64,000 bases of DNA from a virus: positions 1-64,000 of the IMG/VR virus record IMGVR_UViG_3300013113_000816, one strand, 5' to 3'. Positions within the stretch are counted from its first letter, which is position 1. Each line of letters starts with the position of its first letter. Under the pieces are notes generated by a model. It did no database searches, was not told the DNA's origin, and worked only from the letters and a program-made list of their open reading frames with translations. Position numbers and translations under genes: made by a program. Of the stretch, positions 2,952-48,102 are shown piece after piece.

Positions 2952-3153
2952 CTTTGTTTTGGTTTAATTTATGGTGTAACATATTTCTTAATTTATTCAC
3001 CTCTGTCATTTTTACTCTCCCAAAATCTTCACAATAGTAATTCTCTTTAACACTCATCCCATTATCAGCTTGGGTTTTCAATTGAGTCCAATAATCATAT
3101 ATTAAATCTACTAATTCAGATTTGTCTAATTGGTTTAATTCTTCTTTACTCAT
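2941..3153 (-). CDS. Micro-gene 6 of the minus-strand operon
   Basis: 70 aa, MSKEELNQLDKSELVDLIYDYWTQLK..., mostly helical. The start resembles SAP- or LEM-like short helices (LDKSELVDLIYDY), which I do not consider enough for a call. It ends KLNQNKDDE from the shared repeat and overlaps the next start. Confidence 0.7.
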   Translation of the reverse strand: MSKEELNQLDKSELVDLIYDYWTQLKTQADNGMSVKENYYCEDFGRVKMTEVNKLRNMLHHKLNQNKDDE

Positions 3154-3239
3154 CTTTGTTTTGGTTTAATTATTTCTATAATAACAATTAATGTTAAATT
3201 AATACAAGTTATTAATAATAATATCTCAGTTAGACTCAT
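3150..3239 (-). CDS. Micro-gene 5: 29-residue membrane peptide
   Basis: 29 aa, read directly. After MSLTE there is an almost continuous hydrophobic run (ILLLITCINLTLIVIIEII), then KPKQR from the translated repeat. This is a single-span membrane peptide. The same start element and a 4-nt stop/start overlap with the neighbour argue that it is real despite its length. It could act on the host envelope. Confidence 0.6.
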   Translation of the reverse strand: MSLTEILLLITCINLTLIVIIEIIKPKQR

Positions 3240-3251
3240 CTTTGTTTTGGT

Positions 3252-3533
3252 TTAATTCTTTAAGAGATTAACAAATCTATAACAATGAGCAAAATAATCC
3301 CTTCCAGTATGAGAATTAACCTCATCAGTTCTGTTTAACAATACATTTAAAAACAATGCCGATAAATGATGATAATATTTTCTAGCATAATATTCATCAT
3401 CACCATCAAATTTAAGTTGTTCAATCAATTCTATGTTACTATATTTTTTACCATTGGAAAACTCATACACCAACTTATCAACTAGTTTGTTGCCTTTGTC
3501 CAAATAATCATATTCTTTTTCTCTAGTTTTCAT
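3252..3533 (-). CDS. Micro-gene 4 of the minus-strand operon
   Basis: 93 aa helical protein (YDYLDKGNKLVDKLVYEF, EYYARKYYHHLSALFLNVLLNRTDEV) with many aromatic residues. No catalytic motif or membrane span strong enough to name. Its start element is a variant (AAACCAAAAGAAG before the ATG), the least conserved copy in the series. Overlaps the upstream gene by 11 nt. Confidence 0.7.
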   Translation of the reverse strand: MKTREKEYDYLDKGNKLVDKLVYEFSNGKKYSNIELIEQLKFDGDDEYYARKYYHHLSALFLNVLLNRTDEVNSHTGRDYFAHCYRFVNLLKN

Positions 3534-3684
3534 CTTCTTTTGGTTTTAAGTTATCAGATAGTATTTTTTGTATATCCTTGTCCATAGATAATTCATACAT
3601 AATATCTATTTCTTTATCTGTTGGGTTAGGTAATTTAAGCAATAACCCATATAACTTTTTCTTAGCTTCAATTATTTCTCTCAT
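3523..3684 (-). CDS. Micro-gene 3 of the minus-strand operon
   Basis: 53 aa, MREIIEAKKKLYGLLLKLP..., two predicted helices, ending KPKEDEN, where the stop falls inside the start region of the next gene. The ATG is preceded by AAACCAAAACAAAG. No recognised family. Confidence 0.65.
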   Translation of the reverse strand: MREIIEAKKKLYGLLLKLPNPTDKEIDIMYELSMDKDIQKILSDNLKPKEDEN

Positions 3685-3703
3685 CTTTGTTTTGGTTTAT
3701 TTT

Positions 3704-3808
3704 TCATATTATAATTAATGTATATATTATTACAGAACAAGCAATTAATGTTCCTATAATATGTAACCCCTTCTGTAACTTATTTAATTTATTCCAATCC
3801 TCTATCAT
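3704..3808 (-). CDS. Micro-gene 2: 34-residue membrane peptide
   Basis: 34 aa, read directly. A short polar N-terminus (MIEDWNKLNKLQKG) is followed by a hydrophobic segment LHIIGTLIACSVIIYTLIII up to the stop. Preceded by the shared element in a slightly altered form (AAACAAAACAAAG). Probably a single-pass inner-membrane peptide. Confidence 0.55.
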   Translation of the reverse strand: MIEDWNKLNKLQKGLHIIGTLIACSVIIYTLIII

Positions 3809-3820
3809 CTTTGTTTTGTT

Positions 3821-3937
3821 TTATAGAACAGCACTTAAAACACTAGCTATTATTCCTATAATAATGAATAACCAAGTTAATTGTTCATGTGATTGTTCTG
3901 ATTCTTTTTTTACTTGTGTTTTTGTTTTAAACTTCAT
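3821..3937 (-). CDS. Micro-gene 1 (promoter-proximal): 38-residue membrane peptide
   Basis: 38 aa, read directly. A basic N-terminus (MKFKTKTQVKKE) and a C-terminal membrane span (LTWLFIIIGIIASVLSAVL). It is the first gene after the promoter at 3951-3981, with a leader of only about 7-10 nt that contains CCAAAACAAAG before the ATG. Confidence 0.6.
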   Translation of the reverse strand: MKFKTKTQVKKESEQSHEQLTWLFIIIGIIASVLSAVL

Positions 3938-3950
3938 CTTTGTTTTGGCG

Positions 3951-3981
3951 TCAATATACGAAAGAAATATGGGATTTCCAA
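3951..3981 (-). promoter_or_regulatory. Promoter of the minus-strand micro-gene operon
   Basis: On the minus strand: TTG (complement of 3979-3981), exactly 20 nt including TTTCG, then TATATTGA (complement of 3951-3958). It is the same type as the plus-strand promoters and lies back to back with the one at 4015. Confidence 0.6.
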
Positions 3982-4014
3982 GTTATTCCCAAAAAAACGT
4001 ATATACGTAAGAAA

Positions 4015-4045
4015 TTGGTTACCTGAAGGGCCTTTCGTATATTTA
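4015..4045 (+). promoter_or_regulatory. Promoter of the tandem leader-peptide gene cluster
   Basis: TTG 4015-4017, 20 nt ending TTTCG, TATATTTA 4038-4045. The last bases also form TATTTATAA (4040-4048), so the site may serve both host-type and late transcription. It is divergent to 3951-3981, with the palindrome ACGTATATACGT between the two. Confidence 0.65.
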
Positions 4046-4061
4046 TAATAAATTATATTCA

Positions 4062-4289
4062 ATGAAAAAATCAGAACTAAGGAAAATTATCAAAGAGGAA
4101 ATTTTGAAAGAATCACTTCAATTTACCCCGGAGGAGAAAAAAGAAGGCCAACAAATGGAAATGAAAGTAAATGTTCTATCTACCATAGATGAATTAAACC
4201 AGTTTCTGAATGGTAATGTAACCGCTGAGGGATTGAAAGATGCTTTAGAAAGTATGATTTATAAACTAAATAGATTAAATTATAAATAA
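4062..4289 (+). CDS. Putative capsid-targeted internal protein 1
   Basis: 75 aa. Leader MKKSELRKIIKEEILKE is followed by S, giving L-K-E|S at residue 17. The body (EEKKEGQQMEMKVNVLSTIDELNQFLNG...) is helical and small. It is the first of six head-to-tail genes with the same leader, spaced by -4 to +9 nt. Leader plus ΦxE site is how T4 internal proteins are sent into the prohead and trimmed by gp21. Cargo function unknown. Confidence 0.75.
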   Translation: MKKSELRKIIKEEILKESLQFTPEEKKEGQQMEMKVNVLSTIDELNQFLNGNVTAEGLKDALESMIYKLNRLNYK

Positions 4290-4534
4290 TGAAAAAATCA
4301 GAATTAAGAAAATTAATTAAAGAGGAATTAAAATCTGTAAATGAAGGAATTGAAAATAAAATTCCCGGAATGAGAGATTTCTTATTATTTAAATCCATTA
4401 TGGATACTCGAACTATAAAACGTGCTGATGATGAAGATCAACGTAGATGGGCTGAGGTTACTGAGGAATTAGATGATACCTTAACGCGTTGGATGGATTT
4501 GTTGTTAGAATTAGATAAAATATACCCATCATGA
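4289..4534 (+). CDS. Putative capsid-targeted internal protein 2
   Basis: 81 aa. Leader MKKSELRKLIKEELKSVNE then G (V-N-E|G). The mature part would begin GIENKIPGMRDF and is helical with many charges (RADDEDQRRWAEVTEELDDTLTRWMDLLLELD). Shares one base with the previous stop (TAATG). Unrelated to its neighbours after the leader, which supports a modular leader plus cargo design. Confidence 0.75.
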   Translation: MKKSELRKLIKEELKSVNEGIENKIPGMRDFLLFKSIMDTRTIKRADDEDQRRWAEVTEELDDTLTRWMDLLLELDKIYPS

Positions 4535-4752
4535 AAAGATCACAACTAAGACAAATAATCAAAGAAGAAATCTCAAAAGAATTAAAGGAAGGCGCTTTAA
4601 TGGACCAGGGTGGTTGGGATTATAACTTAATGGACCAGATAGAGGATAAAGTTGAGGAATTAAACTCAATAATTGGGAAATATGATAATGAGGAGATTAT
4701 TAATTTAATAAATGAAATTATTAGAGATCTTGAACAGCTGAAAAATAAATAA
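4531..4752 (+). CDS. Putative capsid-targeted internal protein 3
   Basis: 73 aa. Leader MKRSQLRQIIKEEISKELKE then G (L-K-E|G). The cargo is short, acidic and helical (MDQIEDKVEELNSIIGKYDNEEIINLINEI). Overlaps the preceding gene by 4 nt (ATGA). Confidence 0.75.
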   Translation: MKRSQLRQIIKEEISKELKEGALMDQGGWDYNLMDQIEDKVEELNSIIGKYDNEEIINLINEIIRDLEQLKNK

Positions 4753-5027
4753 TGAAAAAATCTGAATTAAAACGTATTATCAAAGAAGAAATTTCCAAGG
4801 TATTAAAAGAAAATACTATGGAAATAAAACCCGGAATTAACCTAAAAGGGAATGATGGTAACTTATATACAGTCCTAAAAGCGGGTAATCCTCAAACCCC
4901 ACACCTCATTAACAATGTAGTTGCATTAATGAGATTTAATGATGATGAAATTGTTTATTTCCCTCAAGATTTCGGTAGATATTTAGAAATAGACCAATTT
5001 TGGGATCATTTTGAACAAACTAGATAA
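4752..5027 (+). CDS. Putative capsid-targeted internal protein 4
   Basis: 91 aa. Leader MKKSELKRIIKEEISKVLKE then N (L-K-E|N). The cargo looks beta-rich, like a small SH3 or PUA-type barrel (GINLKGNDGNLYTVLKAG ... VALMRFNDDEIVYFPQDFGR), and so differs in fold from its neighbours. No catalytic motif seen. Confidence 0.75.
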   Translation: MKKSELKRIIKEEISKVLKENTMEIKPGINLKGNDGNLYTVLKAGNPQTPHLINNVVALMRFNDDEIVYFPQDFGRYLEIDQFWDHFEQTR

Positions 5028-5029
5028 TT

Positions 5030-5350
5030 ATGAAAAAATCACAACTAAGAAAAATCATTAGAGAAGAACTTAAAGGAGCACTAAATGAAGGTATTAACCC
5101 TTTAAAACATCATTTCTTAAATTTACAATTAGATCTTAGACAAGAACTTATTAATAAATTAAAGGGTATGGATACCCAAGCATATATTGCAACTATTGAA
5201 AAATTGATTAATGAAGAGGGTTGGAATATTGGAAATCCTGAGGATGGTAGAGAGGTGTATTTATATATCCAAGGGATGGATGATCAAAAAGTTGAGGCTG
5301 CATTAGAAAGTGAAGCCCTTATAAGAGGATACGGTACACATATTAGATAA
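5030..5350 (+). CDS. Putative capsid-targeted internal protein 5
   Basis: 106 aa. Leader MKKSQLRKIIREELKGALNE then G (L-N-E|G). Helical cargo (LQLDLRQELINKLKGMDTQAYIATIEKLINEEGW). Unknown function; starts 3 nt after the previous stop. Confidence 0.75.
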   Translation: MKKSQLRKIIREELKGALNEGINPLKHHFLNLQLDLRQELINKLKGMDTQAYIATIEKLINEEGWNIGNPEDGREVYLYIQGMDDQKVEAALESEALIRGYGTHIR

Positions 5351-5358
5351 AATAAATT

Positions 5359-5670
5359 ATGAAAAGATCACAACTAAGGAAAATCATCAAAGAAGAACTT
5401 AGTAAATCTATTGTTGAAAATGAACAGTGGAGTGCAGGTGATGTAAGTGAAATTATGAGGCAATTATTGTTAACTCAAAAAACATTGAGAAATGGTGCTT
5501 CTCATATGGAGAGATTAATTGAAGTATTAGGTAAGTATGTTAATAAACCCCAAGGAGATAAATTAGCAGGTATGGTTCCTGATAACTACCAGGTAATTGA
5601 TATTCTTAATAAAATGGAGAATTTAAATAAAGGTCTTCATGCTATGTTCCCACATTTAAATAAAAAATGA
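5359..5670 (+). CDS. Putative capsid-targeted internal protein 6
   Basis: 103 aa. Leader MKRSQLRKIIKEELSKSIVE then N (I-V-E|N). Helical cargo (VSEIMRQLLLTQKTLRNGASHMERLIEVLGKYV) with a lysine-ending tail. Last of the tandem series; its stop overlaps the start of the next small gene. Confidence 0.75.
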   Translation: MKRSQLRKIIKEELSKSIVENEQWSAGDVSEIMRQLLLTQKTLRNGASHMERLIEVLGKYVNKPQGDKLAGMVPDNYQVIDILNKMENLNKGLHAMFPHLNKK

Positions 5671-5843
5671 CTCACAACGAATTAATATGCTACATACAAG
5701 GGGTTTTAGATGCTCATCGTAAAATCAAAATTGAAGTAAGTAAAACTACTAAAATTGAAGATTTAGAAAGTGGGGAGATTTGTGAGAGGTTGATAGAAAA
5801 GGCAATAGAAAAATATAGAGAAAACCCCTCTCCCAAAGCTTAA
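5667..5843 (+). CDS. Small helical protein
   Basis: 58 aa, MTHNELICYIQGVLDAHRK..., ATG overlapping the previous stop (ATGA). Amphipathic helices, no leader of the capsid-targeting type, and ends NPSPKA. No family recognised. It closes the small-gene cluster ahead of the promoter at 5886. Confidence 0.6.
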   Translation: MTHNELICYIQGVLDAHRKIKIEVSKTTKIEDLESGEICERLIEKAIEKYRENPSPKA

Positions 5844-5885
5844 TCCCGAATATCTGTCGATTTATCATGCTTATCCCAAGATACT

Positions 5886-5916
5886 TTGGAATTAGTAAAG
5901 TTCCTTAGTATATTAT
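5886..5916 (+). promoter_or_regulatory. Bacteroidota-type promoter upstream of the T9SS protein
   Basis: TTG 5886-5888, 20 nt, TATATTAT 5909-5916. It is followed at once by a TATTTATAA motif (5920-5928) 9 nt before the ATG at 5938, so two promoter types overlap here. Confidence 0.5.
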
Positions 5917-5937
5917 CCATATTTATAACAAATAATT

Positions 5938-7509
5938 ATGGAAACAAATTCAAAAAAATACAGCTTTTACACTTTAATAATAATCCTTTTAGCAATGTTT
6001 ATTGGTGGGTATCAAACTTGCGCCCAACCAACAGTAACCCTCATGCCTGTTGATGGGAATTGGTATACTTGGACTGTTGATGATGGAATCTTATATGATG
6101 ATGGGGATGTAGGTGGAAATTATACTAATAATGGTTTAGGAGCATTAACAATATATCCTACAGACCAAACCAGTGATAAAATTTATTTAAGATTTGTTGA
6201 ATTTAGAGTTGAAAACCATTCATCTTGTAATTACGATTATTTAGAAGTTTATGATGGAGATGATTTTACTACGTTAATTGGTAAATATTGTGGTACAGAT
6301 TTACCAGATGTTGTTCAATCAACACATCCAACAGGAGCCGTTACATTATTATGGTCTTCAGACTTTTCAGTTACAGATGCAGGATTTAAAATAGATGTTA
6401 GTGTAATAGATCCATTATGGACTATTGAATTGGGAGATAGAAATTCTCAATCAACAGACGGCAGAGTACCATCATATGGTTATTATGATTATTCATGGTC
6501 TGGTTTAATGTGGGGTCAAGCAGATATGGGAGTTCCTATTATAATAGAGAGCATTTCATTTGATGTGGTAAATGATATTGATTTAACTATGAACAATCAA
6601 AAAATATATTTAGCACATACCTCTGCTAATATGTTTCCTGATGGAATAGAACCCACAGATGGTAGTGGCCCATGGACAGATTGGACATTGGTGTATGCGG
6701 GAGATATTAAATGGGTTCAAGGATGGAATACTATTACATTAGATGCTCCTTTTGTTTATAATGGGTTAGAAGGATTATTAGTTAAAACTGTAAATGAAGA
6801 TGGTTCATGGGTAAGTGCATACCCTCAATATAGATACACTTCTAGAGCAAATACAGTTGTATATAATTATGCTGATGGAGCATTTCCAGGACCATCAGGG
6901 TTTAGAAATTCTTTAAGACCTAATATGAGGTTTGGATTTGGAGGGGGTGGAGCTTTACCTATTGTTTTAATGTCGTTTACAGGAGAAGTTAATGATAATA
7001 ATAATGTTAATTTAAATTGGGTTGTTGCATCTCAAGTAAATAATGATTATTTCACTATTGAAAGAAGTTTAGATTGTAGGGAATGGGAAGTTGTTGATAA
7101 TATTAATGGAGCAGGAAATAATAATATGGAAATGAGTTATAATTTAGTAGACCATAATCCCCATCTTGGATTATCTTATTATAGATTATCACAAACTGAT
7201 TATGATGGGAAATTTGAAGTATTCAACCCAATATCAGTAGAAGTTTCAAATGAACACACTGTTGGTTTACATATAGTCCCTAATCCAGCAATTGATAATA
7301 TACATTTAGAATTAGTTTATCCAAATGACCACCCAATAAACCATGATGTAAAAATATATAATTCAAAAGGTGAAGAAGTGTATAAAATGTTTTATATAGG
7401 TGAATTAGAAGAATTTAATATAAACATACAGAAATTTGTCCCCGGATATTATATAGTAAGATCAAAAAGTGATAATTTAAATGGTGAAGGTAAATTTATA
7501 AAGAAATAA
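5938..7509 (+). CDS. Secreted CUB-domain protein with type IX secretion sorting domain
   Basis: 523 aa. Residues 1-29 form a clear signal peptide (basic start, LIIILLAMFIGG core, TCA before Q30, the usual Bacteroidota cleavage context). Residues about 35-157 read as a CUB-like domain (YLRFVEFRVENHSSCNYDYLEVYDG, YCGTDLP), a beta-sandwich typical of extracellular adhesion or binding proteins. About 445-523 is a Por secretion-system C-terminal sorting domain: VPNPAIDNIHLEL, VKIYNSKGEEVYKM, FVPGYYIVRS, KFIKK. Known role of such domains: export across the outer membrane by T9SS, then cleavage or anchoring. The substrate is unknown. A phage-encoded T9SS client suggests altering the surface of the infected cell. 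Forms a close cluster with the SiaC-like gene. Confidence 0.85.
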   Translation: METNSKKYSFYTLIIILLAMFIGGYQTCAQPTVTLMPVDGNWYTWTVDDGILYDDGDVGGNYTNNGLGALTIYPTDQTSDKIYLRFVEFRVENHSSCNYDYLEVYDGDDFTTLIGKYCGTDLPDVVQSTHPTGAVTLLWSSDFSVTDAGFKIDVSVIDPLWTIELGDRNSQSTDGRVPSYGYYDYSWSGLMWGQADMGVPIIIESISFDVVNDIDLTMNNQKIYLAHTSANMFPDGIEPTDGSGPWTDWTLVYAGDIKWVQGWNTITLDAPFVYNGLEGLLVKTVNEDGSWVSAYPQYRYTSRANTVVYNYADGAFPGPSGFRNSLRPNMRFGFGGGGALPIVLMSFTGEVNDNNNVNLNWVVASQVNNDYFTIERSLDCREWEVVDNINGAGNNNMEMSYNLVDHNPHLGLSYYRLSQTDYDGKFEVFNPISVEVSNEHTVGLHIVPNPAIDNIHLELVYPNDHPINHDVKIYNSKGEEVYKMFYIGELEEFNINIQKFVPGYYIVRSKSDNLNGEGKFIKK

Positions 7510-7889
7510 TGGAAATAAAAGCCTTAGGGAATAAACCCTATGTTAAATTAGATAAAGAAAATTGTACCCTAACTATTAAAGGTAAATCATACCCTGAACA
7601 CCCCTCAACTTTTTATAATCCTATCCTAGAAGAATTGGAAAAATGCTCAGAATATATGGAAGGGGCGGTTATAACCATTGACTTAGCATTAGAAATTATG
7701 AATTCTGTTTCTACTAAATATATTTACCATATGATTAAAAAAATAGATGGGTCTGCTAGAAATCTTGTTATCAATTGGTATTATGAAGAAGATGATGATG
7801 ATATGAAAGAAGAGGGTTCTTTATTTAGAAATGCTTTCCCTAATTCAAAGTTTAACATAATTTTTGTAGAGGATTTGATGGAGATATGA
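7509..7889 (+). CDS. SiaC-family regulatory protein (DUF1987)
   Basis: 126 aa, the usual length for the SiaC/DUF1987 family. Signatures: an N-terminal strand pair with IKGKSYPEHPSTFYNPILEEL (compare G.SypEn...Fy.pl), a helix with AVITIDLALEIMNSVSTKYIYHMIKKI, and NWYYEEDDDDMKEEG, the hallmark WyYeEdDedm.e.G. In bacteria SiaC is a phospho-switched partner of a diguanylate cyclase or PP2C-type phosphatase module. In a phage it may mimic or titrate the host partner; that is inference. Its start overlaps the stop of the T9SS gene by one base, so the two are translated together. Confidence 0.8.
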   Translation: MEIKALGNKPYVKLDKENCTLTIKGKSYPEHPSTFYNPILEELEKCSEYMEGAVITIDLALEIMNSVSTKYIYHMIKKIDGSARNLVINWYYEEDDDDMKEEGSLFRNAFPNSKFNIIFVEDLMEI

Positions 7890-8272
7890 TAGGTTTTGTT
7901 GTTTTAATTGTTGCCTCTATTTTACTCTATCTATTACTTCCAATAGTTTCTATTTTTATGATTATTAAATATCTCTTTACAGGGGATAAAAGGATGATGT
8001 CTGTTTGGTTTTGGCGTACAGCTAGAGAAATTGATGTATTTGCTAATGTAAATGGAGCAGAATTTTTTGATGCTATTTTTATTAGAGATGGGGGGTATAA
8101 ATTTGGTAATCCTAAAGAAACCATCTCTTCCGTGATTGGAAAAAATCAAAGAGATAATACATTATCCATAGCAGGTCAAATATTAAGGTGGATGTTAGAT
8201 AGAATAGATCAAGACCATTGTTTAAACTCCATCAATTCTCAAGCCACTAATACTAAAAAAGACACGCATTAA
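7886..8272 (+). CDS. Small membrane protein with GGYKFGxPKETISSVIGKN motif
   Basis: 128 aa. Residues 2-32 form one long or two short membrane spans (FVVLIVASILLYLLLPIVSIFMIIKYLF). The soluble part has a motif I recall from proteins of Bacteroidota phages and prophages: GGYKFGNPKETISSVIGKNQRDNTLS followed by LDRIDQDHC. Function of that family is unknown to me; a membrane-anchored lysis or exclusion role is possible. Overlaps the SiaC-like gene by 4 nt. Confidence 0.7.
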   Translation: MIGFVVLIVASILLYLLLPIVSIFMIIKYLFTGDKRMMSVWFWRTAREIDVFANVNGAEFFDAIFIRDGGYKFGNPKETISSVIGKNQRDNTLSIAGQILRWMLDRIDQDHCLNSINSQATNTKKDTH

Positions 8273-8466: not shown

Positions 8467-9273
8467 ATGTTAGATTTAAGTAAAGTAGAATTTTTAAGTG
8501 ATGAGCAAATTAAAGAACAAGCACCTTCAGTGTTTACTCAAAAGCCATCAAAAGAAGTTTCAAAACATTACACTCACATTCCTACAACTAAAGTTATCAA
8601 TGATATGAGAACACTAGGTTGGGATGTTGTTGATGCTAAGCAAGTTGCTGCTCGTACAAGCTCAACAAGAGGTGTTCAGAAACATTTAGTTGTATTTAGG
8701 AATCCTGATGTTGTCATTAATGGAAATGATGGTGATACAGTTTTTCCACAAATTTTGTTAACAAATAGTCATGATGGTAAAAATAGTTTTACTTTCACTG
8801 CGGGATTGTTTAGAATGGTTTGTGAAAATGGTTTGGTTATTTCGGAAACTCAATTTGAAGATGTTAAAATGAGACATATGGGTTATTCATTTGAGGAATT
8901 GCAAGTTCAAATTAGAGAAATGGTTGAGAAATTACCATTAACTGTTGAGTCAATGAATAAAATGAAATCCATAGATTTAGAACAAGAAAAAGCTGTTGAT
9001 TTTGCTAAAAAAGCTCTTGGAACTCGATTTACAAAGGATGAATTGAAGAGAATTAAAATTGATGTTATTGAATTATTAAACCCAGTTCGTGAAGAAGATT
9101 GTGGAAATGATTTATGGTCAATTTTTAATGTAGTTCAAGAAAAAATCATTGAAGGTGATTTTGAATATTCAATTGGGAGTAAAGTTCGTAAAGCTCGTCA
9201 AATTAAAAATTTCAAACAAGACCAAAAGATCAATAAAGAATTATTTGATTTAGCGTTAGAGTACGTTTCATAA
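8467..9273 (+). CDS. DUF932-type phage/plasmid protein
   Basis: 268 aa. The central region PQILLTNSHDGKNSFTFTAGLFRMVCENGLVISE matches the DUF932 (plasmid/phage LGT protein) pattern, with an N-terminal part (TTKVINDMRTLGWDVVDAKQV) and C-terminal helices typical of it. Biochemical role unknown; members sit on phages, plasmids and near defence or anti-defence genes. It has its own promoter upstream and a strong terminator downstream, so it is a single-gene unit and probably highly expressed early. Confidence 0.8.
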   Translation: MLDLSKVEFLSDEQIKEQAPSVFTQKPSKEVSKHYTHIPTTKVINDMRTLGWDVVDAKQVAARTSSTRGVQKHLVVFRNPDVVINGNDGDTVFPQILLTNSHDGKNSFTFTAGLFRMVCENGLVISETQFEDVKMRHMGYSFEELQVQIREMVEKLPLTVESMNKMKSIDLEQEKAVDFAKKALGTRFTKDELKRIKIDVIELLNPVREEDCGNDLWSIFNVVQEKIIEGDFEYSIGSKVRKARQIKNFKQDQKINKELFDLALEYVS

Positions 9274-15695: not shown

Positions 15696-16028
15696 ATGAA
15701 AGCAAACGAATTAAAAAAAATGATTAAGGAAGCAGTTAAAGAAGCTATCCAAGATGAATTAAAAGAGATTCTATTAGAAGCTGTTAAAGCTCCTAAACAG
15801 GTTGTAAATGAGAGCAAAAACATAAGTTCCCCTACCCCTACACCCCAAATATCATCTACTGAAACGAGGCAGAAGTATATGGATGTGTTAGGAGAAACAG
15901 CTTTAAATTTTACAAGTAAAGATGTAAAAAGATTTAACCCCCAAGGTGCAGGAGACACCACTTCCCCAAATGGAAGTTTACCTGAAGGAGAATTAGGAAT
16001 GGACCAAATAATGAATTTAATGAAGTAG
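15696..16028 (+). CDS. Leader-bearing small virion protein
   Basis: 110 aa. N-terminus MKANELKKMIKEAVKEAIQD is a longer version of the MKKSELRKIIKEE leader and reaches EILLE|A near residue 29. The rest is proline/serine/threonine-rich (SSPTPTPQISSTETRQ) and low in predicted structure, ending MDQIMNLMK. It lies within the baseplate block just before gp25, the only leader-type protein there. Function unknown. Confidence 0.7.
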   Translation: MKANELKKMIKEAVKEAIQDELKEILLEAVKAPKQVVNESKNISSPTPTPQISSTETRQKYMDVLGETALNFTSKDVKRFNPQGAGDTTSPNGSLPEGELGMDQIMNLMK

Positions 16029-46498: not shown

Positions 46499-47374
46499 AT
46501 GAAAAAATCACAACTTAAAGAAGCTATCAAAAACGAAATTAGATCTGTACTATCAGAAAATGATTATGATAAAGGTATGGAATTGTCTTATATTAAAGAT
46601 CATGGGGAAAAAGATGGAATAGCTGCCATAGGTAGAAATATAAACATGTTTGGGCCTCCTAAACTTAAAAGTGTAGCAGAAATTCAAACTTATGTTGAAG
46701 CATTTGGAGATGGTGTTGAAGAAGAAGGTAGGAGAATTTCTCATAAAATGGGAATAGCTATGAGAGGTGGAGGAGATGAAGAAGCACTTTCAGGACTAAT
46801 TGGATTAAAGGAAATCCTTAATCCTGAAGTTCACAAAATGGTTAACAACCTTATTAGAAAAATAGCTAAAATGTATGGATATGAAGAAAGAAACGCAGTA
46901 TATGCTATTAAGCAAGCCATAAGTGATTGGGAAGATGAACCAGGTCAAGTAGCATTACCCCCATTAAGAGAAGGTACTTGGAGTTCTGGAACTTATAATG
47001 AAATTGGTAGATTTATAAATGATTTAAAAAGACTTAAAAATGATTATTATAACATAGTAGGTAGTGATGATGTTTTTAATGGTTTAGACCAAGCTGAAAG
47101 TGCTGCCGAAGAAATGATGGTGAATGCTCCTGAAAACAGATCAGATATTACTGAAGATGAAGAACCAACATCTGCAGAAGTAAAAAAAGAAAAAAGCATA
47201 GCTGCTGAAAAAGAAGCTGCTCTTAAAGCGCAAAAAGCTTTAAAAGATCTTAAATCTAAAATGAAGAAAAAAGCTAAAGAATACAAAGAAGCTGAAGGTG
47301 ATGCTAAAGAAAAAATAAAAGCTGAATTAAAGAAAATGACAGCTGAAAAGAAAAAACTTGAAAAAGATACTTAA
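46499..47374 (+). CDS. Leader-bearing head-core/internal protein
   Basis: 291 aa from ATG 46499; an upstream TTG at 46493 is ignored because the leader MKKSQLKEAIKNEIRSVLSE then N begins at the ATG as in its relatives. Body: helical (FGDGVEEEGRRISHKMGIAMRGGGDEEALSGLIGLKEIL), then an acidic stretch and a very long Lys/Glu/Ala coiled coil at the C-terminus (from about residue 215). Core-like composition; function unknown. Confidence 0.7.
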   Translation: MKKSQLKEAIKNEIRSVLSENDYDKGMELSYIKDHGEKDGIAAIGRNINMFGPPKLKSVAEIQTYVEAFGDGVEEEGRRISHKMGIAMRGGGDEEALSGLIGLKEILNPEVHKMVNNLIRKIAKMYGYEERNAVYAIKQAISDWEDEPGQVALPPLREGTWSSGTYNEIGRFINDLKRLKNDYYNIVGSDDVFNGLDQAESAAEEMMVNAPENRSDITEDEEPTSAEVKKEKSIAAEKEAALKAQKALKDLKSKMKKKAKEYKEAEGDAKEKIKAELKKMTAEKKKLEKDT

Positions 47375-47738
47375 TAATATACAATTAGTTTTTATAGTAA
47401 TACTGGCAATTGCCTTGGTTTTAAGTTTATTATTTAGACCTTCAATACCCATTGATACTTATGAGGAAGAAATTAAAGCTCTAAAAACTCAAAATAAACA
47501 GTTATTATTATCAAATGATAGTATAAATAATATTAATAATAAGTTACAAAAAGAAATTAACACTATACTCTATGCTATTGATAGCACAAAAGTTATCCTA
47601 AAAGAAACCGAAAATAAATTAGCAGAGTTAGAGAAAAAAAGAAATGAAATACCTGGTATCATTAACGATATGGATAGTGATGATATTACCAATAACATCT
47701 CAGACTATCTCAAGAGGAGAAGTAAAGGAGATAATTAA
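47358..47738 (+). CDS. Membrane-anchored coiled-coil protein (i-spanin-like)
   Basis: 126 aa, starting with TTG inside the 3' end of the preceding gene. N-terminal span LVFIVILAIALVLSLLF, then a coiled coil (EEEIKALKTQNKQLLLSND... NKLAELEKKRNE). This is i-spanin architecture. The next gene begins within it in another frame, the layout of many spanin pairs. Confidence 0.6.
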   Translation: MKKILNNIQLVFIVILAIALVLSLLFRPSIPIDTYEEEIKALKTQNKQLLLSNDSINNINNKLQKEINTILYAIDSTKVILKETENKLAELEKKRNEIPGIINDMDSDDITNNISDYLKRRSKGDN

Positions 47739-48102
47739 TAGTGATGGTGATACTTTAATCCTAATGAATTTAGAAGATGCTAGAATTGTATTAAGCGATC
47801 TTTTGGAATATGAGATTGTTGATAGTCTTCTTACAGTTTATAAAGAAAAAGATTCATTAAACACAAATACTATAACTTTACAAAAAGATGTTATAGTTAA
47901 ACTTACCCAAAAATCTCAAAACCAACAATCAATAATAGATAATTTTGAACAAATTTTATCTAATAAGGATATTGAACTTGATATAAAAAATCAAGTTATT
48001 GAAAAACAACAAAAAGAAATTCGAAAACAAAAAAGATTAAAAGTTATTGGTTTTATTGGTTCCATTGTATTACCTATAATAACATTAATTGCCTTAATTT
48101 AG
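47644..48102 (+). CDS. Exported coiled-coil protein with C-terminal membrane span (spanin-like partner)
   Basis: 152 aa. Signal-like N-terminus MKYLVSLTIWIVMILPITSQ without a lipobox cysteine, a coiled coil (LQKDVIVKLTQKSQNQQSIIDNFEQILS...), then a C-terminal span (VIGFIGSIVLPIITLIALI) preceded by lysines. Overlaps the gene before by 95 nt in a different frame. Together the two may disrupt the outer membrane at lysis. A lipoprotein o-spanin would need a cysteine, so this is a variant or a different envelope protein. Confidence 0.6.
   Translation: MKYLVSLTIWIVMILPITSQTISRGEVKEIINSDGDTLILMNLEDARIVLSDLLEYEIVDSLLTVYKEKDSLNTNTITLQKDVIVKLTQKSQNQQSIIDNFEQILSNKDIELDIKNQVIEKQQKEIRKQKRLKVIGFIGSIVLPIITLIALI

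Follow-up and report, generated by a model that had tools for sequence, protein, structure and literature searches.

What a T4-like phage might do with a protein predicted to be secreted by its host is the question raised by an open reading frame (ORF) in the IMG/VR virus record IMGVR_UViG_3300013113_000816, of which positions 1 to 64,000 (here called the window) were analyzed. A first-pass annotation had described the ORF at 5938-7509 as a client of the type IX secretion system (T9SS) with a signal peptide, a CUB-like domain and a C-terminal sorting domain, had taken the sorting domain as fixing the host phylum, Bacteroidota, and had stated that the phage uses the export path of its host. The coordinates, frame and length of the ORF proved exact. 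The encoded protein, here named the cargo, is listed with its neighbors and with comparable proteins of related phages in Table 1.

Since profile scoring of the C-terminal domain (CTD) had been named beforehand as a possible refutation, the CTD was subjected to profile searches, which it passed. PF18962 matched residues 447 to 516 with 31.0 bits (cut-off, 27) and TIGR04183 matched residues 446 to 523 of 523 with 28 bits (cut-off, 23), so that the sorting domain sits at the extreme C terminus of the cargo and exceeds the curated cut-off of either profile. When the entire 65,222-base record was searched in six frames, it was the sole match, and none of the control genomes searched in this way rose above the sorting-domain cut-off. 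An AlphaFold2 model of residues 339 to 523, built with 60 sequences, reached a mean predicted local distance difference test (pLDDT) score of 93.9 and has seven strands in the tail. The top VIA-align match of the modeled tail was the sorting domain of Tannerella mirolase (8qb1; Z, 11.6; root mean square deviation [rmsd], 1.8 Å), with an alignment covering 79 of 88 residues; the remaining rows of similar Z were two-domain FN3-like matches with large rmsd. Furthermore, a profile of the cargo tail together with bacterial tails matched the T9SS CTDs 8glj, 8glk and mirolase in the PDB and, weakly, gingipain R2. The predicted T9SS CTD is thus borne out by both profiles and fold comparison, and the layout of an FN3-like domain followed by a CTD also occurs in about 60 bacterial loci. 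The CTD of the related contig L217 is 75% identical to that of the cargo, with nonsynonymous differences (pN, 0.15) far below synonymous ones (pS, 0.81; synonymous sites are saturated and no ratio is quoted), which indicates that purifying selection acts on the export tag among phages.

By inspection, the N terminus of the cargo has a clear n-, h- and c-region (KK, a hydrophobic run and TCA directly before Q30), and the signal peptide ending before Q30 therefore stands as a prediction. Processing as a lipoprotein via C28 was rejected: the YQT before C28 fits a lipobox poorly, and homologues lack a cysteine at this position. The CUB-like domain was recovered well above the cut-off of PF00431 (55.1 bits versus 21.4; E = 1e-14; residues 79 to 152). 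Because this match spans only profile positions 36 to 108 of 110, the N-terminal third of the domain appears to be divergent. A phmmer search found the CUB domains of cubilin and neuropilin in the PDB, and E92, D100 and D142 align with the Glu/Asp/Asp of cubilin, which we take to be the calcium-binding site of the cbCUB type. By this alignment, the cargo CUB retains the Glu/Asp/Asp of calcium-binding CUBs. Two domains had been missed by the first-pass annotation, a beta module at about residues 160 to 335 and an FN3-like domain at residues 339 to 440. Look-alikes of the beta module are found in L020, L026 and L031 and also in the marine Flavobacteriales proteins L051, L086 and L102. PHROGs holds no family for the cargo protein, and a full-length fold search gave mostly neuropilin and generic FN3 matches that indicated no function. 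A viral library already lists uncultured phage proteins named "CUB domain" and "Secretion system C-terminal sorting domain."

The same protein is encoded, at 100% identity, on four additional contigs (one covers the last 128 residues only) whose flanking DNA is 98 to 99.9% identical, and the cargo gene is thus not a misassembly. As we read it, the record carries the T4-like genes gp6, gp17, gp20, gp21 and gp23. Its gp23 is 60% identical over 100% of the length to that of the Flavobacterium phage immuto (isolation host, Flavobacterium sp. LMO8), and the order DUF932-HD-gp55-gp6-gp17-gp20-gp23 is common to the window and immuto. This confirms the T4-like setting, and we assign the contig to a T4-like phage related to Immutovirus, its likely hosts being marine bacteria of the Flavobacterium type. 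Since gp23 identity and gene order agree with immuto, the tag is not the sole basis for the proposed Bacteroidota host, which is supported without it. Immuto itself encodes a T9SS cargo: QQO91933.1, recorded only as "cohesin domain-containing," has a signal peptide and a PF18962 tail like the cargo but differs from it in its cohesin head and its genome position. The gp23 of Microcystis phage Mel-JY01 (PP395634.1) is 50% identical to that of the window, and its Microcystis host label may be wrong.

A scan of close-relative genomes found no bacterial relative of the whole cargo protein, and an alignment scan returned bacterial relatives of its FN3-like module only. In a tree of FN3 domains (few columns, a rough bootstrap and a bacterial sample picked by similarity), the cargo belongs to a clade (support, 100/93) whose ten rows are all from phages, of different lineages, and which adjoins short-tailed proteins of marine Flavobacteriales. 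Proteins with a Bacteroidota-type FN3 domain and T9SS CTD were also seen in L043 (PBTY01000106.1), a metagenome-assembled genome titled Rickettsiales that is probably mislabeled or contaminated.

The timing of expression may be read from the motif TATTTATAA upstream of the cargo gene. It occurs 24 times in the window (7.8 expected), and 12 of the 19 plus-strand copies sit 11 to 29 nucleotides (nt) before an ORF start (0.66 expected), among them one copy 18 nt before the cargo gene and one 21 nt before the portal gene, gp20. The motif likewise precedes gp20 and the genes for tail sheath, a tail spike and a tail fiber in immuto, as well as the cargo genes in L151 and L031. We infer that TATTTATAA serves these related phages as their late promoter. 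TATAAATA, the late motif of T4, was discarded, being rare in the window (8 copies, 3 before ORFs). The first-pass annotation had suggested superinfection blocking, altered attachment or polymer handling as uses of the cargo, between which the data do not discriminate. As the late-promoter motif precedes the cargo gene, a purely early block of superinfection by the cargo is less likely. In the L006-L012 lineage, the cargo homologue lies just upstream of genes for an M15-like peptidase, a small membrane protein and a lipoprotein, which in our reading resemble a lysis cassette. In L031, a 154-kb phage, a gp23-like gene is directly followed at 3097-6255 by a short-tailed signal-peptide protein and then by a subtilase with an SprB repeat (PF00082, PF13573).

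Furthermore, we analyzed whether comparable genes exist at the same place in other phages. Eighty relatives of the downstream DUF932 gene were collected, of which those with at least 74% identity were taken as the closest. Of the 19 closest relatives whose upstream sequence was usable (window counted), 13 encode a protein with an export-type tail no farther than about 6.3 kb upstream of DUF932; short tails were counted as export type by position and motif, not by profile. The heads of these proteins vary (Table 1). In L216, the head differs from that of the cargo (17% identity there), whereas FN3 and CTD are 54 to 55% identical to the window. Because related phages keep the tail and exchange the head, the cassette may be a general display or secretion platform with a varying target, which suggests that these phages routinely place proteins of their own at the surface of the infected cell or beyond it.

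Table 1. Features of the cargo locus in the window and proteins with export-type tails in related phages
Feature	Location	Strand	Remark
T9SS type A cargo, 523 aa, with CUB domain	5938..7509	+	
Signal peptide, residues 1-29, predicted cut between TCA and Q30	5938..6024	+	Sequence inspection; helix 8-23 in model
CUB domain, residues 79-152, Ca-site type E92/D100/D142, plus C97/C118	6172..6393	+	PF00431; cubilin alignment
Unnamed beta module, about residues 160-335	6415..6942	+	Without Pfam match
FN3-like domain, residues 339-440	6952..7257	+	Also in secreted proteins of phages and Bacteroidota
T9SS type A C-terminal sorting domain, residues 442-523, seven strands	7261..7506	+	
TATTTATAA late-promoter-like motif	5920..5928	+	18 nt 5' of cargo start codon
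SiaC-like protein	7509..7889	+	Start codon overlaps cargo stop (TAATG)
Small conserved membrane-type protein p3	7886..8272	+	Between cargo slot and DUF932
DUF932 protein	8467..9273	+	Conserved anchor downstream of cargo slot
MAM head, short tail	L134, L138		
MAM/PKD head, related short tail	L136		
M43 metalloprotease head, type A tail	L140		
PKD head, type B tail	L126		
942-aa protein, type A tail	L128		Adjoining barrel-like gene
Type A tail	L147		
133-aa protein: signal peptide plus type B tail	L158, 997-1395		More distant relative

The short tails gave no PF18962 match, and their hhalign comparison with the T9SS CTD reached a probability of 43% (E = 2.5e-4). The idea that they are specific to phages was rejected, as they are also found in the chromosomal Flavobacteriales proteins L036, L037, L051, L086, L088 and L102. 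The chromosomal form spans about 40 aa (N-x-x-G-Q-E-V ... Y/W-x-D/N-G-x-x-x-K) and is missed by the T9SS profiles; it may be an undescribed short sorting signal. In L128 (4696-5775), and also in L129 and L137, a gene for a 360-aa barrel-like protein with a signal peptide begins at the cargo stop codon. No link of the L128 gene to PorP/SprF is claimed, Pfam and NCBIfam having given no match.

From these data, it is probable that the cargo is made late by the phage as a client of the host T9SS, and its most likely role is that of a late extracellular ligand-binding effector. A late-type promoter, TATTTATAA, would drive the cargo gene together with the structural genes; Sec and signal peptidase I would bring the protein into the periplasm; and the host T9SS, judging by the family, would recognize the CTD, carry the cargo across the outer membrane and remove the tag. 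The CUB and beta modules could then bind a ligand at the cell surface or outside. Use of the host export path is hence predicted from the sorting domain, although the first-pass annotation overstated it as shown. Some observations weigh against this reading: the role at the surface is deduced from domains only, most of the relatives' cargo genes looked at do not have TATTTATAA directly upstream, and six close relatives do not have such a gene in the available sequence. As to its purpose, we tentatively favor the idea that late in infection the cargo masks or disables receptors on the host surface, which would spare progeny from loss to the infected cell and its debris. Phage T5 makes Llp, an envelope lipoprotein that blocks the receptor from the periplasmic side and protects progeny. 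The comparison with the cargo is functional only, without homology, Llp being a lipoprotein that acts from the periplasm.

Nearly as likely, if somewhat doubtful when taken by itself, is a purpose in adhesion or aggregation that is compatible with the same T9SS route: through the exported CUB protein, infected cells or debris would become attached to particles, polymers or neighbors, and the SiaC-like protein, translated along with it, would tilt a host partner-switch to the sessile state, so that new hosts would be at hand where progeny are released. In support, CUB, MAM, PKD and cohesin are all domains of binding or adhesion. The neighboring protein matches PF09345 with 100.7 bits (cut-off, 24.5; E = 5e-29), and its gene overlaps the cargo stop codon in the window and L216 (TAATG) and in L217 (ATGA), adjoins the cargo gene in the L031 group and lies 1.6 kb from it in L219. 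In Pseudomonas aeruginosa, SiaC controls aggregation and biofilm via phosphorylation of Thr68 (PMC7647112). In the window protein, however, a phosphorylatable Ser stands at the Thr68 position, and because the protein misses the cut-off of the SiaC equivalog NF038265 (46.9 versus 150 bits), it is regarded as a SiaC-family protein and not claimed as a functional SiaC. Also speaking against this purpose, the SiaC gene is found in only 4 of 27 records tested; since most cargo-bearing phages do not have it, it would be a partner in one branch and not a requirement.

The preferred reading, a late effector exported via the host T9SS, can be widened to the phage group: with a little less than even confidence, we propose that flavobacterial T4-like phages maintain a dedicated late export cassette with a conserved FN3 and T9SS tail, swapped binding or protease heads and, in one branch, a SiaC-like regulator, with the host T9SS as display platform. 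Such head swapping would be akin to the exchange of tail-fiber tips on virions.

It is improbable that the cargo is instead a virion part, i.e., a head or tail decoration with signal peptide and tag as relics. The late-type promoter motif would fit this, as would the frequency of FN3 and Ig-like folds on virions and the T5 and lambda tail tips among the fold-search matches. Those tail-tip hits are generic FN3 matches, however, while complete homologues have signal-peptide-like N termini, purifying selection has kept the CTD, and the top single-domain fold match is a T9SS CTD. Slightly less probable still is a decoy, in which the cargo or its small relatives consisting of a signal peptide plus CTD would fill the translocon and block host export of gliding adhesins or surface receptors. 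The L158 protein, with little beyond a signal peptide and a type B CTD, is such a small relative, but the large N-terminal domains of the window protein would be unneeded. A 190-aa phage protein with a signal peptide and a T9SS type B sorting domain was also seen at L217:3293-3862, and both it and the 133-aa protein of L158 are possible T9SS decoys. Least probable by our estimate is a passenger gene taken from the host without benefit, since FN3-like and CTD modules are indeed common in Bacteroidota proteins but nonsynonymous change (dN) is far below synonymous change (dS), the gene recurs both in a fixed slot and across several lineages of phages, and the FN3 tree has a phage-only clade.

Phage-encoded T9SS cargo is already known from Cryophage, whose type A cargo varies among phage variants and for which hijacking of host export was proposed (Bellas et al. 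2020, PMC7468147). The heads there are endoglucanase, GH39 and PA14, in contrast to CUB, MAM, M43 and PKD in the group of the window, which is further set apart by its phage (T4-like and of Immutovirus type), by its late-promoter motif, by the overlap with a SiaC-like gene and by the fixed slot before DUF932. T9SS-tagged ORFs also lie near phage head genes in crAss-like contigs (PMC6949934); the window cargo differs from these gut phages, which have BACON domains and one ORF with both a BACON and a T9SS domain. Chromosomal type A cargo of Bacteroidota shares the FN3-like plus CTD layout, whereas the FN3 domain of the window belongs to the phage-only clade. A literature search, with subscription papers outside its scope, found no report beyond Cryophage and the crAss-like contigs. 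Judged by these sources, what is new is a T4-like group anchored by an isolate, its late-promoter motif, the overlap with a SiaC-like gene and the swapping of heads at a fixed slot. Little is known of how Bacteroidota phages remodel the exterior of the infected cell. The fixed tail, exchangeable heads, late-type motif and a cultivated relative (immuto on LMO8) make phage use of the T9SS directly testable, and the slot upstream of DUF932 offers a genomic handle for gathering many phage-exported proteins.

Elsewhere in the window, six tandem small ORFs at 4062-5670 share a MKKSELRKIIKEEL-like N terminus, which is also found on the proteins at 15696, 43569, 46493 and 38711. This N terminus resembles the T4-type capsid-targeting sequence with an IxE cleavage site, and its bearers may be packaged internal proteins; the ORFs at 4062, 15696, 43569 and 46499 are also preceded by the late motif. 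Just upstream of gp17, at 47358-48102, two overlapping ORFs, one beginning with a transmembrane segment and the other with a signal peptide, resemble an overlapping spanin pair.
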